Assembly: GCF_001941975.2 (NCBI RefSeq) | Contig: NZ_CP146991.1 | Coordinates: 4,829,501 to 4,893,500 of the forward strand | Length of the DNA stretch: 64,000 nucleotides | DNA from: Sporomusa sphaeroides DSM 2875 | GTDB taxonomy: Bacteria > Bacillota > Negativicutes > Sporomusales > Sporomusaceae | Reading direction: 5' to 3' | Shown: positions 26,632 to 43,333 of the stretch, piece by piece | How positions within the stretch are numbered: the stretch's first letter is position 1 | How the letters are laid out: the number at the start of each line of letters is the position of its first letter | Program-made: the position numbers and the translations under genes | Notes under the pieces: model-generated | The model's input: the letters and a program-made list of their open reading frames with translations, nothing else | Database searches by the model: none | What the model was told of the DNA's origin: nothing

Positions 26632-27003
26632 TTAGCCTTTAGCCAGTAACTTCAGCAAATGAATCAGATTCCCCCTGTATTGCATCAACGGCCGTCGCTC
26701 CCGCTCATATTCCTCTCGGTCTTTAAACCCAAATTCGCCGATTACCGGCTGTATCACATACCCATATTTCTGGTCCGGTTTTAATACGGCCCCAATATTC
26801 CGAATATATGCTAACATCGAAACCAATTCGCGCCCTGAATTAAACTCGGCCATTTCAAATAACCGCATCCATAACTCATGATCGCCTGGCGAGTGCTCCG
26901 AATATTTATCCTCCCATTGATAGGCAGTCATTTCTTTTAATAAATCAGTCGGTTCCGGTATGACCTGTTCAGGCGCATCGAAAAATTTGTCAAAAACGCC
27001 CAT
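26632..27003 (-). CDS. Hypothetical acidic phage protein next to the iteron region
   Basis: A 123-residue protein starting MGVFDKFFDAPEQVIPEPTD with no recognised domain; the C-terminal part (KDREEYERERRPLMQYRGNL) is basic-helical. It is the first gene downstream of the iteron-like array and reads away from it. Its position suggests a role linked to replication or its regulation, but nothing in the sequence proves this. Confidence 0.65.
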   Translation of the reverse strand: MGVFDKFFDAPEQVIPEPTDLLKEMTAYQWEDKYSEHSPGDHELWMRLFEMAEFNSGRELVSMLAYIRNIGAVLKPDQKYGYVIQPVIGEFGFKDREEYERERRPLMQYRGNLIHLLKLLAKG

Positions 27004-27024
27004 TTTATACGCACCACCTCAAAA

Positions 27025-27321
27025 TATCCTACTGTATCCTACTCGGTATCCTACTAAAAAAACCTTGAAACCCGCGCCATTGCTGGATGTATCCTACAAA
27101 TCCTACTATCCTACTCGAAAAACATACCTATAAGAGATATAAAAAAAATATTTTTTATAGGCAGGGTAAATTGTGTAACAATATTTTTTTTGCTCGCGCG
27201 TGTAGCGTGTTTTTGTAGTAGGATAGTAGGATAGTAGGATATTTATATATAAGAATATAGATAATATAAGGGTTTATAGGTGTTTTTTTGTATCCTACTC
27301 GTATCCTACTCGTATCCTACT
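27025..27321. repeat. Iteron-like array of TATCCTACT, candidate phage replication origin
   Basis: Nine-base TATCCTACT occurs at 27025, 27035, 27047, 27107, 27291, 27302 and 27313, with one-base variants at 27090 (TATCCTACA) and 27099 (AATCCTACT). Three overlapping inverted copies (AGTAGGATA) run at 27217-27241. Between the arrays lies a very AT-rich stretch with an inverted repeat (CCTATAA at 27127-27133, TTATAGG at 27155-27161). The 343-base gap holds no gene and lies between the primase-helicase stop and the next gene. Clustered direct and inverted repeats around an AT-rich core are the layout of iteron origins; a regulator-binding region is the alternative. Confidence 0.6.
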
Positions 27322-27346
27322 CTTTAAAATTATTGTTAACTAGACA

Positions 27347-30223
27347 CTATTTTTCGAGTTCTGAAAGCTTAATACATATCATTCTGACCTGTGTTCGTGT
27401 TTCACCGGGTTTAGTTCGTTTGATTTTAAAAACTCTTTTACCAGATTCAATTGTCGTAACTATTTTCTCGTCATTTGCCAATTCGCGAAGAACTTTTTGA
27501 GGAGAAAATCCACGTTCCCTAAGCACGTCATTAAATACAGTTGGGTTTATACATAAATACAATTCATCTTTAAAACCGTAAGACATCGGCATATTTACCC
27601 GAAATTTACCTTCGTTTGCCTGGGCCCAATCCACAATATAGTCCCAGGCTTTAGTTACGTCACTGGCCTCCGTTTTTGTGACCATGCCAGCAATGATATG
27701 CTTCGCAAGTTCTGCGGCCTCGCCCGCCGCCCCGGCCTCATCGGCGCCAAAAATCCACTGGCTAACCAGGAAATCGGCGAGAGCCACCACAGAGACTGAG
27801 TCGATATGAGAGTCAAGTTTTTCCGGGAATTGCTTCCGTATTCCGGCACGCATATCGTTGAACGTTTGTTTTAATGTATTGCGGTCGTATTTTATTAATC
27901 GCCGGATAAACTCTGTCCCGGCATGTCCGTGGTGATCGGCTGTCAGGCGATACAGATCCGACGCGAAGGGTTTGTTGTCGGCAAACGGTCCGCCGTAAAT
28001 TTCAAGCGTTCGGGTAACGGCTCCGGCCGTGGACGAATCCCCTGACAGCATCCCCTCGCCGGTGGATAATACGATTGTCCGCCATGTCGCCGTTTGTTGC
28101 ATACCACCGGACTTATTGCCGCGGTTGCGACCTTTTCCTTCAGCAATTTCGTAAATTTTATTTGTTGCCTCGGTTTTGTCTCGCATGGTTTCGCGTTCAT
28201 TGAGGCCCATTGGCAAGTCATTACACAGGGAAAGTTTCTTCTCAATACCGGTTTTCGTGGAATCAAAACTAGTGCGCAATTCGTCCGGATCACCCCAGGC
28301 CGACAGCGCCACATAAAGTGCGGCCGTTTTGCCGTCCTGAGAATTCCCCCAGTTATGTATGAAAAATATTCGCTGTGACAATATCCGTAAAAGCGGCGCT
28401 GCAAACGATGCAGATAATATAAATCGAGCTACCGGCCGCTGCCTGACTTCGGCGGCGAATTGCTTCCATTCATCAAAACTGCCAGATATTCGGTATCCAC
28501 ACACCGCAGAGTTTGCGGCCGTGTCGTCAAGGTCTAGCCGGTAACCTCCTTCGGCGCCCGGGATAAATATCTCATCGCCGCGCCAGCCCATGCGGGATAC
28601 GGCTTTACCTTCAGGTATACTGTTTAAGTTCGCGCCCTCAAGTTCATCAAACCATTTCACCAGCCACCTGGCTGATTCACTGGATACGGTAAGGCCTTTG
28701 TCAGCCAGTTTAATAACTTTTTTGGCATCAAACACTTCTGAACGGGCTAATAAAACCGACTCCCATTTACGGCCACGAAGAAACGTCACTTCGATTTTTT
28801 CAATATCGCTGTCGATATTTCTAAGCCGGCTTGTGAGTAATACTGGCACATGTGACGCCCGGTAAGTTTTGACGTTATCCCGGGACCAATCCTGATATAA
28901 AATTCCGTTTCGTGTGCATATCCAGTCCGCCGGAATCATCATGTCAACTGGTGAGTCAGGGATAATTGTTTTTACGCCCTGTGCTGGCGCTCGGCTGGCA
29001 AGCTTTAGTTTTGCGGTGTGTTTTTTAAGCGCGGCCTTTAATGTATTGACGCTGATTTTACCTTTCGCCCGGGTTTTGAATATCTCAAACTCGGCCGGAT
29101 CCTGCTCTTGCAACAGTGCCAATGCGCCGATAATTTCGTCGTTAAAAACTGTTTGAGTTTCGACCGGTACCGTTCGGGCTATGGCGCGAGCGCGGGGAAT
29201 TTTTTTGAGTGCCCACCCGCAAGGAGCCTTAATATCCTGGCAGCCGCCAGGTGGACAACCGGTGAAACCTAATGTACCGGTTATATACTCGCAACTGTGG
29301 GGATGATTATCTTCCAGCGAATGCCGAATTTTTTCTTCCGTTTTCTTTGGATCATATTTGACTCCCAGCACTGGCCGGATTAATTCATGGATTAGCTCTG
29401 GACCACCTTTACAGCGGGACAGATTCGCACAGGCAGCAAACCATTCAGGTTCAGGTATTTTCCCAATGCTGGACCGGAAACGCGCCAAAAATGCACATTG
29501 AGAGATTGCCAGTTCCGCCGATCCGTCACCGTCTCGGCGTTCGAATTTTGTTTTCCTGGTTCTGTCGCCGGTGGCCTGTTGGGGCTCGGCTGTGTATGGT
29601 TCCAAATCAGATGGGTTGTAACGTTCGGATGATTCATGAATGATTTTTACTTCGACCGGATCCGATTTATAGTTTTTAGTACCAGGTACCCTTAGGACGC
29701 GAGACAGGTCATGCGTTGAATCAAATTTATAACCTAAGGTTGCGGCATGCTGCCTTAATGCAGTTTGAAATCCGTGCAGTAATTCAGATGCTTGTTTCCA
29801 CTCTTCTGGCGTATCAAGTGTCCAAATTTCGCGAAATAGCCAATAAGCATGAAGGCCATGCCCTGAATATATGATTACGCTCGGCTCTAACGGTATCGCA
29901 TTGATAACTTGCATGGCTGCACCGATATCAGATGGCAGTTTCGTTTCGGCGTGTGCATCACCGCTAGCAATATCCATATCGAACCATAGGCCCGGAATAG
30001 CGGTTATTTCTTCGGCGGTTATGCGTTCGTAGTCGCCTTTAGGTTTATCTGTGATGCCGACGCCAAAGTATACGTTTTTCTGTGCATTAGAGAGCCGCAA
30101 AGCCGTTTTTATGGCATTGTCGGTATTATCTATAGGGAACCAATATGTCCGTTTGTCTGGGAGCGTCCAGATCGATAGATATCCGGACTCAGCATTGCCG
30201 TATAGTTCTTCAAAAAAATTCAC
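27347..30223 (-). CDS. PrimPol-DUF927 replicative primase-helicase
   Basis: A 958-residue protein from the GTG at 30223, which overlaps the stop of the 44-residue gene (GTGA) and has AGGGAG eight bases upstream. The N-terminal RepB-type primase-polymerase shows a DxD pair in WFDMD (81-84), SGHGLHAYW (120-128) and HDLSRVLRVPGTKN (171-184). A Cys-rich part (C311, C323, C328, C335) may bind zinc. From about 430 to the end it is a DUF927 helicase with Walker A WGNSQDGKT (625-633). It should synthesise primers and unwind DNA at the phage origin. The iteron array lies just after its stop. Confidence 0.9.
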   Translation of the reverse strand: MNFFEELYGNAESGYLSIWTLPDKRTYWFPIDNTDNAIKTALRLSNAQKNVYFGVGITDKPKGDYERITAEEITAIPGLWFDMDIASGDAHAETKLPSDIGAAMQVINAIPLEPSVIIYSGHGLHAYWLFREIWTLDTPEEWKQASELLHGFQTALRQHAATLGYKFDSTHDLSRVLRVPGTKNYKSDPVEVKIIHESSERYNPSDLEPYTAEPQQATGDRTRKTKFERRDGDGSAELAISQCAFLARFRSSIGKIPEPEWFAACANLSRCKGGPELIHELIRPVLGVKYDPKKTEEKIRHSLEDNHPHSCEYITGTLGFTGCPPGGCQDIKAPCGWALKKIPRARAIARTVPVETQTVFNDEIIGALALLQEQDPAEFEIFKTRAKGKISVNTLKAALKKHTAKLKLASRAPAQGVKTIIPDSPVDMMIPADWICTRNGILYQDWSRDNVKTYRASHVPVLLTSRLRNIDSDIEKIEVTFLRGRKWESVLLARSEVFDAKKVIKLADKGLTVSSESARWLVKWFDELEGANLNSIPEGKAVSRMGWRGDEIFIPGAEGGYRLDLDDTAANSAVCGYRISGSFDEWKQFAAEVRQRPVARFILSASFAAPLLRILSQRIFFIHNWGNSQDGKTAALYVALSAWGDPDELRTSFDSTKTGIEKKLSLCNDLPMGLNERETMRDKTEATNKIYEIAEGKGRNRGNKSGGMQQTATWRTIVLSTGEGMLSGDSSTAGAVTRTLEIYGGPFADNKPFASDLYRLTADHHGHAGTEFIRRLIKYDRNTLKQTFNDMRAGIRKQFPEKLDSHIDSVSVVALADFLVSQWIFGADEAGAAGEAAELAKHIIAGMVTKTEASDVTKAWDYIVDWAQANEGKFRVNMPMSYGFKDELYLCINPTVFNDVLRERGFSPQKVLRELANDEKIVTTIESGKRVFKIKRTKPGETRTQVRMICIKLSELEK

Positions 30224-30354
30224 CCGTAACACTCCCTAATCATTGCCAATAAAAACACGGCCCAGGCAATTAATGCCGCGTTTACAATAAAAATACCAAT
30301 CTTAAAACATGCGTCGGAGATTGCTTCCCTCCTTCGCGCGGTGAGTTTTAGCAT
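30220..30354 (-). CDS. Single-helix membrane microprotein
   Basis: A 44-residue protein (MLKLTARRREAISDACFKIG..) with a basic N-terminus and one hydrophobic helix (IFIVNAALIAWAVFLLAM), N-in by the positive-inside rule. AGGAGG lies upstream of the ATG, and the stop overlaps the primase start. The function is unknown; similar small proteins are often missed in annotation. Confidence 0.6.
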   Translation of the reverse strand: MLKLTARRREAISDACFKIGIFIVNAALIAWAVFLLAMIRECYG

Positions 30355-30369
30355 TTATGGAATACCTCC

Positions 30370-32136
30370 TTAAAGGTGAGAGTATTGCCTGTATGGTTGC
30401 TGCACAGCGTCACATAGCTCCGGCAAATTTGCACTTACCAATGCTTCTGCAAATTGTGGCGGCACCGCATTTCCGCATCTTGCCACCTGTTTAGCCTTTG
30501 AATACCGCTTACCATTACAATCCTGATCAATAATGTAATCGGCTGGGAAACCCTGAGCAGCGAACAATTCATGTGGCTCTAGCATCCGCATGCCGATATC
30601 TACTATTTGATAATCCTGACCGTGAATAGTGACTAATCCAAGCCGGTCCTTAGTTGTGATAGTGTGTACCGGTTCCTCTATACTCTGACCAATGGCTGTC
30701 CCATAGTATTTCAGTAGAAAGGCCCTTACTTCGCCAAAGTGCAAACCGCCGGCAGTAATTGTTTGTATCGGTTCAGCCACTTCCTGCCCTATGTTAGTGC
30801 CTTTCATTTTAACCAAATGACTGGTAACTAAGGCGTTGTGATCAACCGTGGTTACTGTCGGCACTGGTTCATCCATTCCGGCGCCAGGACCATTATAATT
30901 ACCGCCGTAATGCTTAGCGAGGAAAGCAGCTACCAATTGGGACTTACCACCACCGCCGGCCGTCACTGTTCCTAGAGGTTCATCCATGATATGGCCTACC
31001 GAATTACCAAACTGGCGAGAAATGAAGGCGGTAGCAATGGCGAATTTATTACCTCCGGCGGTTATAGTCCCTAATGGCTTATGTATATTGAGAACACGGG
31101 GTTCCTGCCCCTCCCGTTCTCCATATCCCATTTGGATCAGCGTTGGTGCAATAAGCAGATGTTCTGCCTTGCTGACAATAGTAGTTAGCGGATCATTAAT
31201 CGGGTACTGCTTCCGGTCACCGCTAAATCCTGTATGTCCGATCTGAGCTACAAAGGGAGTAACTATACCCCAGCCATTCTTTGCCGTGATAGTCTGCAAT
31301 GGTTCGTCAATCTCCTGGCCGCGAAAGTCAACGCCGTGATGATTAACCTTGATGACAAAGGGTTTAGGGTTATTTATAACAAACTTCTGAATCCCCCGGG
31401 CTATACGGCGCATTGTGTTTTCGGCCAGTGGTTTCTTACGTTCAAAGATACTCTGACACGGTAGTGACCAATCAATTATTTCGGCTGCCGTTCGCCATGG
31501 TTTGAGCTTCCCTTTCTTTACTTCCGGGCTGTCAGGATGACCGTGAGTAGGTTTCGGCCAAACAATCTTCCGCCCGTCACACCTGGCTATGAGGAATAAG
31601 CGTTTCCGTATAGTCGGAGCCCCATAGTCACAGGCCCGGAGCTCACGCCATTCAACTTTATAACCATGTCTTTTCAATGCGTTCACGAAAGCCTTGAATG
31701 TAATCCCTTTTTTCTTAGGGTCTGGCTTACCGTCTTTAAGCAGCGGCCCCCAGGTCTGAAACTCCTCTACATTCTCCAACATGATAACCCTTGGCTGTAC
31801 AGTTGCGCCCCATCGTAACGTTACCCATGCAAGGCCGCGAATTTTCTTTTCAACAGGCTTACCACCTTTGGCTTTTGAAAAATGCTTACAATCCGGGCTA
31901 AACCAACACAATGCTACAGGCCTGCCTTTGGTTGCTTCCCTAGGGTCAACATTCCAAACTGATTCGCAGTAATGCTCTGTATCGGGATGGTTAACTGTAT
32001 GCATTGCGATTGCATCAGGGTCATGATTAATTGCTATATCTACGCTACGGCCTATTGCTAAAGCAATTCCGGTGCTGGCCCCGCCCCCACCGGCGAAGTT
32101 ATCGACTATGATTTCTTGAAATAACTGTTGTTGCAG
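30370..32136 (-). CDS. C5 cytosine DNA methyltransferase with repeated recognition domain
   Basis: A 588-residue enzyme if started at the CTG at 32136, preceded by GGGAGGAG with eight-base spacing; the frame has a stop just upstream and no ATG/GTG/TTG before motif I. Motif I is VDNFAGGGGASTG (about residues 11-23), the catalytic Cys83 lies in SPDCKHFSKAKGG, LENVEEF is motif VI, and TIRKRLFLIAR is motif VIII. The region from about 250 to 500 carries seven copies of an EPL.TITA-like repeat (DEPLQTITA, DEPLGTVTA, AEPIQTITA and others), an unusual target-recognition region. It should methylate phage DNA, perhaps against host restriction. An ATG at 32004 would lose motif I. Confidence 0.9.
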   Translation of the reverse strand: MQQQLFQEIIVDNFAGGGGASTGIALAIGRSVDIAINHDPDAIAMHTVNHPDTEHYCESVWNVDPREATKGRPVALCWFSPDCKHFSKAKGGKPVEKKIRGLAWVTLRWGATVQPRVIMLENVEEFQTWGPLLKDGKPDPKKKGITFKAFVNALKRHGYKVEWRELRACDYGAPTIRKRLFLIARCDGRKIVWPKPTHGHPDSPEVKKGKLKPWRTAAEIIDWSLPCQSIFERKKPLAENTMRRIARGIQKFVINNPKPFVIKVNHHGVDFRGQEIDEPLQTITAKNGWGIVTPFVAQIGHTGFSGDRKQYPINDPLTTIVSKAEHLLIAPTLIQMGYGEREGQEPRVLNIHKPLGTITAGGNKFAIATAFISRQFGNSVGHIMDEPLGTVTAGGGGKSQLVAAFLAKHYGGNYNGPGAGMDEPVPTVTTVDHNALVTSHLVKMKGTNIGQEVAEPIQTITAGGLHFGEVRAFLLKYYGTAIGQSIEEPVHTITTKDRLGLVTIHGQDYQIVDIGMRMLEPHELFAAQGFPADYIIDQDCNGKRYSKAKQVARCGNAVPPQFAEALVSANLPELCDAVQQPYRQYSHL

Positions 32137-42346: not shown

Positions 42347-43333
42347 TCACTTCACCACCTTTAAGCGTTTCGTTTTGGACAGGGCTGCTTTGATTGTTTG
42401 TAAGCGCTCAATACATTCCCCTAATTCGCTGACGGTAAAGTCAATTTCGGATGGACCATTTTCATGGTTAACAAAATACCGTGCAGCTTCTTCAACATCT
42501 TCTGATCGTAATTTAAGAACTGCGGTAATCATTTTGGGAATCATAGTCGATAGGGCATACTCTCTGTCGATTTTTTTGTCGCTTTCTGAAATACGGGATT
42601 CCATTTCTTTACGTTGCTGAGGTGTCATACTACAATACTCTTCAAGCTTTTGCTGATTATATCCATCCATGAGATACTCGGCTTGTCCGTTTTCTAAGCG
42701 GCTGACAGCTTCGGCCTGCTGTTTAGGGGTGGCACTGCATGCTACAGCAAAACCCTGCATCAGCGGGACCTTTCCTGCTGCTACTGCGTCGATTAATTCT
42801 GGTGCAGCTTTTTGCACCAATTCTTTGGCACATTCAATTTTAGAGTCTGTTGGTTCGAAGATAGTGATAGGTTTTTGAACGGCTTGGCGGGGATATGTTT
42901 TTCCGTCTGCGCCGGTTGAGGTGTTGCATTGCAACAACTGTCCTTGATCTTCCATTCGTTGTCGTGTTCGACTGACGGTCGAATTATCGACACCCAAACT
43001 TACTGCAATCTGCCTGTCGCTCTTTTCCGGCGTCTCCAGCAACTGCTGGCGAATCAACTCTTGCCGCTGCTCCCTAGTCAGATGCCTTCGGGCCATATTA
43101 AGTTTGCGGGCATGTTCGCGTTTTTGTTCTTCCGTCATACCTACTCGCACAACTCGCGGCCAATCTTTTAAGCCGAGTTCAGTGCAAATTTTTATGCGAT
43201 GATGTCCATCAAGAATATTGCCATCTTCGTCATACTCAACCGGCACCATCATGCCACGCTTTTGAATGTCTACTTTAAGTTCAGTGTAGTCATCGGGTGA
43301 TAAATCCGGCATAACCTGGTATGTATTGCTCAA
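42347..43333 (-). CDS. ParB-like DNA-binding protein
   Basis: A 328-residue protein with an N-terminal ParB/sulfiredoxin-like domain (DYTELKVDIQKRGMMVPVEY, LDGHHRIKIC at 41-50) and a helix-turn-helix (SDRQIAVSLGVDNSTVSRTR) near residue 110. The C-terminal 200 residues are helical. In phages, ParB-like proteins act as regulators or as replication/segregation factors; without a ParA gene nearby a partition role is not supported. Its start lies just after the excisionase-like gene. Confidence 0.78.
   Translation of the reverse strand: MSNTYQVMPDLSPDDYTELKVDIQKRGMMVPVEYDEDGNILDGHHRIKICTELGLKDWPRVVRVGMTEEQKREHARKLNMARRHLTREQRQELIRQQLLETPEKSDRQIAVSLGVDNSTVSRTRQRMEDQGQLLQCNTSTGADGKTYPRQAVQKPITIFEPTDSKIECAKELVQKAAPELIDAVAAGKVPLMQGFAVACSATPKQQAEAVSRLENGQAEYLMDGYNQQKLEEYCSMTPQQRKEMESRISESDKKIDREYALSTMIPKMITAVLKLRSEDVEEAARYFVNHENGPSEIDFTVSELGECIERLQTIKAALSKTKRLKVVK

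Follow-up and report, generated by a model that had tools for sequence, protein, structure and literature searches.

The 343-bp non-coding gap that follows the primase-helicase gene of the prophage in the window (the whole 64-kb stretch of DNA that was analysed) is, with high probability, the replication origin of this phage, with the adjoining PrimPol-DUF927-HTH_56 protein as its initiator, in a proposed scheme of wing-directed docking on iterons, formation of two rings, melting of the core and priming. The repeat array in the gap is, on its sequence, very probably an iteron origin, and the wing of the C-terminal domain is most likely the part of the initiator helicase by which the repeats are read. 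An iteron-type origin at this place had been put forward in a preliminary description of the DNA and is supported here, related arrays adjoining the same gene in relatives. The features concerned are the following.

27004..27346, non-coding gap with the candidate origin, 343 bp, 33% GC
27291..27321, group A of the iterons, the closest to the stop codon of the initiator, 3 copies with an 11-bp period, minus-strand reading AGTAGGATAC
27217..27241, group B of the iterons, 3 copies with an 8-bp period, orientation opposite to A and C
27116..27216, AT-rich core, probable melting site, 101 bp, 30% GC
27090..27115, group C of the iterons, 3 copies with an 8-9-bp period, 2 of them with one mismatch
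27025..27055, group D of the iterons, 3 copies with a 10-12-bp period
27347..30232, minus strand, initiator of 961 aa: PrimPol (about 1-215), DUF927 AAA+ helicase (441-714) and HTH_56 winged helix (860-957)
27434..27460, minus strand, initiator residues about 925-933, predicted wing start and proposed iteron-specificity segment (coordinates = 30232 - 3 x residue number)
26632..27003, minus strand, 123-aa protein adjoining the origin, from a conserved but unnamed family that occurs next to origins of the PrimPol type

Organization of the repeat array

Twelve copies of the 9-bp word TATCCTACT, arranged in four groups of three, lie between 27025 and 27321. Seven are exact and on the plus strand (27025, 27035, 27047, 27107, 27291, 27302 and 27313), two on the same strand carry one mismatch (27090 and 27099), and three are exact but inverted (27217, 27225 and 27233); all counts and coordinates of the earlier description of the repeats hold, as do its four groups, its AT-rich core with an inverted repeat and the non-coding nature of the region. 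Read in the sense of the initiator gene, the order is A, B, core, C, D, with 25 nt between the stop codon and the first iteron and six iterons on either side of the core. The GC content of the core (30%) compares with 48% in the initiator gene; an inverted repeat (27127-27140 / 27148-27161) is found inside it, and groups B and C together form a 25-nt inverted repeat across it (92%). All iterons are in the non-coding gap and none is inside the initiator gene.

Matches to TATCCTACT with at most one mismatch number 26 in the window, against 9.7 +/- 3.1 in shuffles, and the commonest 8-mer within 450 nt of the initiator stop codon occurs in 11 copies, where 100 dinucleotide shuffles give a maximum of 3. 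This is the only strong short-word array within the window, and no second tandem array of TATCCTACT was found elsewhere in the 5.0-Mb host genome. An Rfam search gave no match at the gathering threshold; a weak miRNA-like match over the array (E 0.028) was set aside as a reflection of its inverted repeats, and a CRISPR reading was dropped because the repeat is 9 bp long with a period of 8-12 bp.

The initiator protein

The protein encoded immediately beside the array matches DUF927 (2.7e-50) and, at its C-terminal end, HTH_56, the "Cch helix turn helix domain" (6.6e-14), in Pfam; neither of the two proteins flanking the array has a Pfam match to a Rep_3 or RepA-type initiator. In phmmer searches against solved structures the counterparts were 8tch, the SaPIbov1 Rep (1e-25), and 5dgk, the Cch protein (3e-13), and it is the helicase and C-terminal part that matches the SaPIbov1 initiator and SCCmec Cch. 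A predicted model (AF2, mean pLDDT 80.9) aligned with 8tch, titled SaPIbov1 replication initiator, over 457 residues (Z 32.8) and with SCCmec Cch at Z 28.0, while its N-terminus aligned with the PrimPol domain of cyanophage S-2L (Z 18.1). Since the Pfam matches, the sequence matches to structures and the fold alignments agree, the 961-aa protein is, by sequence and predicted fold, a primase fused to an initiator helicase of the SaPI type. The preliminary description had seen no initiator of a known family here; the adjoining protein is in fact a DUF927 and HTH_56 initiator helicase of the SaPIbov1 Rep and Cch kind.

The surrounding prophage

The element around the origin is a complete tailed prophage with terminase, portal, capsid, tail, baseplate J and integrase genes, which sets it apart from the PICIs, satellites without a full virion gene set. 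The 123-aa protein next to the array belongs to a family whose members come directly behind the origin at 20 or more PrimPol-type loci; it had no match in Pfam, PHROG or PDB sequences and no convincing fold match, and a role as a replication accessory factor is possible. At 30370-32004 on the minus strand, a 544-aa C-5 cytosine methylase-like protein is encoded, whose residues about 200-470 appear repetitive by eye (QTITA / GTVTAGG motifs). The same genome contains, 57 kb away, a second prophage region with a homologous initiator of 37% identity (G000:C1:4799826-4802627; L010, L142), whose origin has the layout described here and a different iteron word, TTATTACA. The two prophages are apparently orthogonal co-resident replicons.

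Arrays in related phages and prophages

Relatives were gathered from genomes and viral contigs with an alignment query, which was needed as single-sequence queries gave the same genome only or nothing. Nonredundant loci with a match reaching at least residue 900 were retained and, with the named phages, made a set of 144; an array was called when the 450 nt 3' of the stop codon contained four or more identical 8-mers, a number above that in 20 shuffles. By this definition an array lies directly 3' of the initiator gene at 113 of the 144 nonredundant loci, and none was called in the 5' flank (0 of 137 loci) or in the tested stretch of the gene (0 of 144). The preliminary description had held that absence of the repeats from close relatives with the same primase would speak against an origin; arrays are present at the same place in most relatives, which clearly removes this objection. 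The remaining 31 relatives fall below the threshold, and degenerate arrays are visible in L016, L025 and L058 among them. The truncated relative L022, which is without HTH_56, has no array. At one further locus of the 31, L020/L141 in a Selenomonadaceae contig (L141 5187-8147 and 12439-12955), the full-length initiator seemed array-less, but 11 copies of TTGGAACA occupy another intergenic gap 4.3 kb downstream of its gene.

The iteron words vary by locus (AGTAGGAT, AGTTAGAC, AGTGGGTA, TTATTACA, GTTGCGTC, AGGTGTAAC and others) and their number, mostly 9-12, varies too. The layout is constant across 75 loci, with a median core of 96 bp at 29% GC, where the gene has 51%, tandem inner groups, mostly of 1-3 copies, that are opposite in orientation at 70 of the 75, and outer groups about 40 bp beyond the inner ones. 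Group D is direct in this phage, yet inverted in many relatives; the SaPI-like PT1028 has the four-group layout seen here. The AT-rich cores of L008, L011, L014, L015 and L018 have inverted words in common, such as TATACCACC ... GGTGGTATA, irrespective of the iteron, and ACCACC/GGTGGT and TATACC/GGTATA are enriched over shuffles in relatives' cores; in this window the TATACC/GGTGGT core words are faint. These words are possibly a second protein site or a melting element.

The distribution of the arrays bears on whether the repeats could instead be operator sites through which a regulator controls the downstream genes, by promoter control or autoregulation, which we consider improbable. The array is indeed placed about 21 bp ahead of the next same-strand gene, and iteron binding can also control transcription. 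However, promoter-like matches in the region are at chance level (2, with 3.1 expected), the L141 array lies in a different gap, 4.3 kb away from the initiator gene as well as from the partner that usually follows this gene, and the array accompanies the initiator gene across different primase fusions and in a SaPI.

The part of the initiator that follows the iterons

A set of 514 close pairs, whose helicase cores are more than 55% identical, was used to compare iteron similarity with divergence along the protein; these pairs are not independent. With core identity removed, iteron similarity showed a partial correlation of 0.446 with identity in residues 901-960 (permutation p 0.0005; the largest value among 1,999 permutations was 0.21), while 60-residue blocks between 421 and 900 reached at most 0.18 in a scan of nine blocks from 421 on. 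The sharpest evidence comes from near-identical initiators whose iterons differ, since their differences fall mainly in the predicted wing (925-933). L110/L134 and L056/L135, two pairs with almost identical cores, each independently show the iteron change AGGTGAAAC to AGGTGTAAC, and both differ at residues 927, 928 and 930. The enrichment of differences in residues 925-933 gave hypergeometric p values of 3e-4 and 1.5e-6, which are indicative, the segment having been picked post hoc. L111/L114 also differ at 925, 927, 930 and 933, and in the pairs L109/L111 and L013/L027, which have the same iterons, residues 925-933 are identical.

The pattern is not the same in every comparison. Per-column association over all close pairs places K938, E929 and I928 in the top 20 along with helicase-core columns, and the argument for specificity therefore rests on the near-identical pairs and the block scan. 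The HTH peak of covariation is clear for the close pairs and for DnaG-type loci; in an all-pairs scan of PrimPol-type loci alone the peak falls at residues 631-750 and not in the HTH, and the all-pairs rank correlation is weak and confounded by two clades. The sequence covariation in favour of C-terminal reading of the iterons is thus strong but not uniform.

The same comparison was applied to the 123-aa neighbour, which the preliminary description had named as a possible binder of the repeats and which does adjoin the origin in the PrimPol-type loci counted above. Its divergence is not tied to the iterons once the C-terminus of the initiator is accounted for (partial -0.05; in the reverse test 0.40), and the DnaG-type phages and PT1028 had no match to its family in the neighbour search yet carry the same arrays, so that we regard it as very unlikely to be the iteron-binding protein. 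Least likely of all is that the array serves the ParB-like protein of the phage as a partition (centromere-like) site, since, although a protein with ParB-like PHROG matches is encoded at 42347-43333, the array goes with the DUF927 gene from phage to phage and covaries with the C-terminal end of the DUF927 protein, and inverted tandem repeats around an AT-rich core are the layout of a melting site.

For the initiator as reader of the iterons, the predicted model places the recognition helix at residues 911-920 and the wing at 927-940, and its C-terminal domain (856-961) aligns with TcpK bound to oriT DNA (5vfx) at Z 12.4, with an rmsd of 1.8 A over 91 residues. TcpK binds a 9-nt tandem-repeat sequence with its beta-wing in the major groove, and its canonical helix contacts the backbone just once (PMC6137059). 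Because covariation and the wing mode of TcpK point to the same element, we propose that DUF927 initiators read their iterons by the wing.

Proposed mechanism of initiation

The origins of PICIs have been located right behind the 3' end of rep and have two sets of iterons around an AT-rich region, and clones of rep with ori replicate (PMC6092414). The C-terminal domain of SaPI Rep acts on iterons directly 3' of its own gene, and that of Cch2 binds direct repeats 3' of its own gene (PMC7581432). From the layout of the array and this SaPI/PICI and Cch2 work (PMC7581432, PMC6092414) we infer that HTH_56 winged helices would dock on the 8-9-bp iterons, six per side of the core, with specificity residing largely in the wing (residues about 925-938). 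Two helicase rings may then assemble on tandem repeats B and C, which face outward, groups A and D being putative outer anchors; the rings would melt the AT-rich core and travel apart, and the fused PrimPol would lay down primers.

Comparison with known replicons

The closest parallel is the rep-ori module of SaPIs and PICIs (8tch; PMC6092414), which shares the DUF927 initiator helicase, the origin directly 3' and the two iteron sets around an AT-rich core. It differs in that here PrimPol is fused to the helicase in a 961-aa protein, the iteron word is another one, and the host element is a complete phage and not a satellite. As judged from sequence, then, the origin has the structural features of the SaPI/PICI module in an element that is not a satellite. 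The "new origin type" of the preliminary description can therefore not be upheld, the plan having been published for SaPIs and PICIs, with the origin directly 3' of rep and iteron sets around an AT-rich region. A literature search that covered few subscription papers found no description of this origin type in autonomous phages.

Other systems share single parts of this arrangement. SCCmec Cch (5dgk) contains a DUF927 helicase as well as the HTH domain after which PF18662 is named, but is without the fused primase, and SCC replication in vivo is unproven; Cch2 has a helicase of a different family and only three 5-nt iterons. TcpK, of the pCW3 relaxosome (5vfx), has the winged-helix fold of the C-terminal domain described here, and it reads a tandem 9-nt repeat through its beta-wing, the mode proposed here for the initiator; unlike the initiator, it is not a helicase but a free-standing dimer that works at oriT during conjugation, and the two are about 14% identical. 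The common fold of HTH_56 and TcpK, as modelled, suggests one repeat-reading domain used at both ori and oriT. In Thermoanaerobacterium phage THSA-485A and Faecalibacterium phage Epona, a DUF927 primase-helicase gene is likewise directly followed by an array of the same layout, whereas the primase part is of the DnaG/CHC2 type and not PrimPol, and the iteron words are others; no origin is annotated in the stretches of their records that were inspected. In contrast, in lambda-type origins the iterons lie inside the initiator (O) gene and not in a non-coding gap.

Significance

To our knowledge, most temperate phages of anaerobic Firmicutes have unmapped origins. A DUF927 gene followed, usually within tens of nucleotides, by an array in the order A-B-core-C-D pinpoints a candidate origin by inspection in more than 100 phages and prophages, and the SaPI/PICI replicon is thereby extended to autonomous phages with PrimPol or DnaG-type primase fusions. 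The origin itself belongs to a known kind, in an autonomous temperate phage of a Sporomusa host, and the reading of the wing as a code is the more novel part; the pairs of near-identical initiators whose iterons differ suggest a few wing residues as this specificity code, which could account for the replication of several related prophages side by side in a cell without cross-talk. We see an even chance that the DUF927 initiators of phages and islands make up one large re-codable origin-recognition system, in which the palindromic iteron scaffold is fixed, the word changes freely, and reading is by the wing in the TcpK mode rather than by the recognition helix. If this is true, a few wing residues would be enough to make origins orthogonal, as in the two prophages that lie 57 kb apart in this genome.
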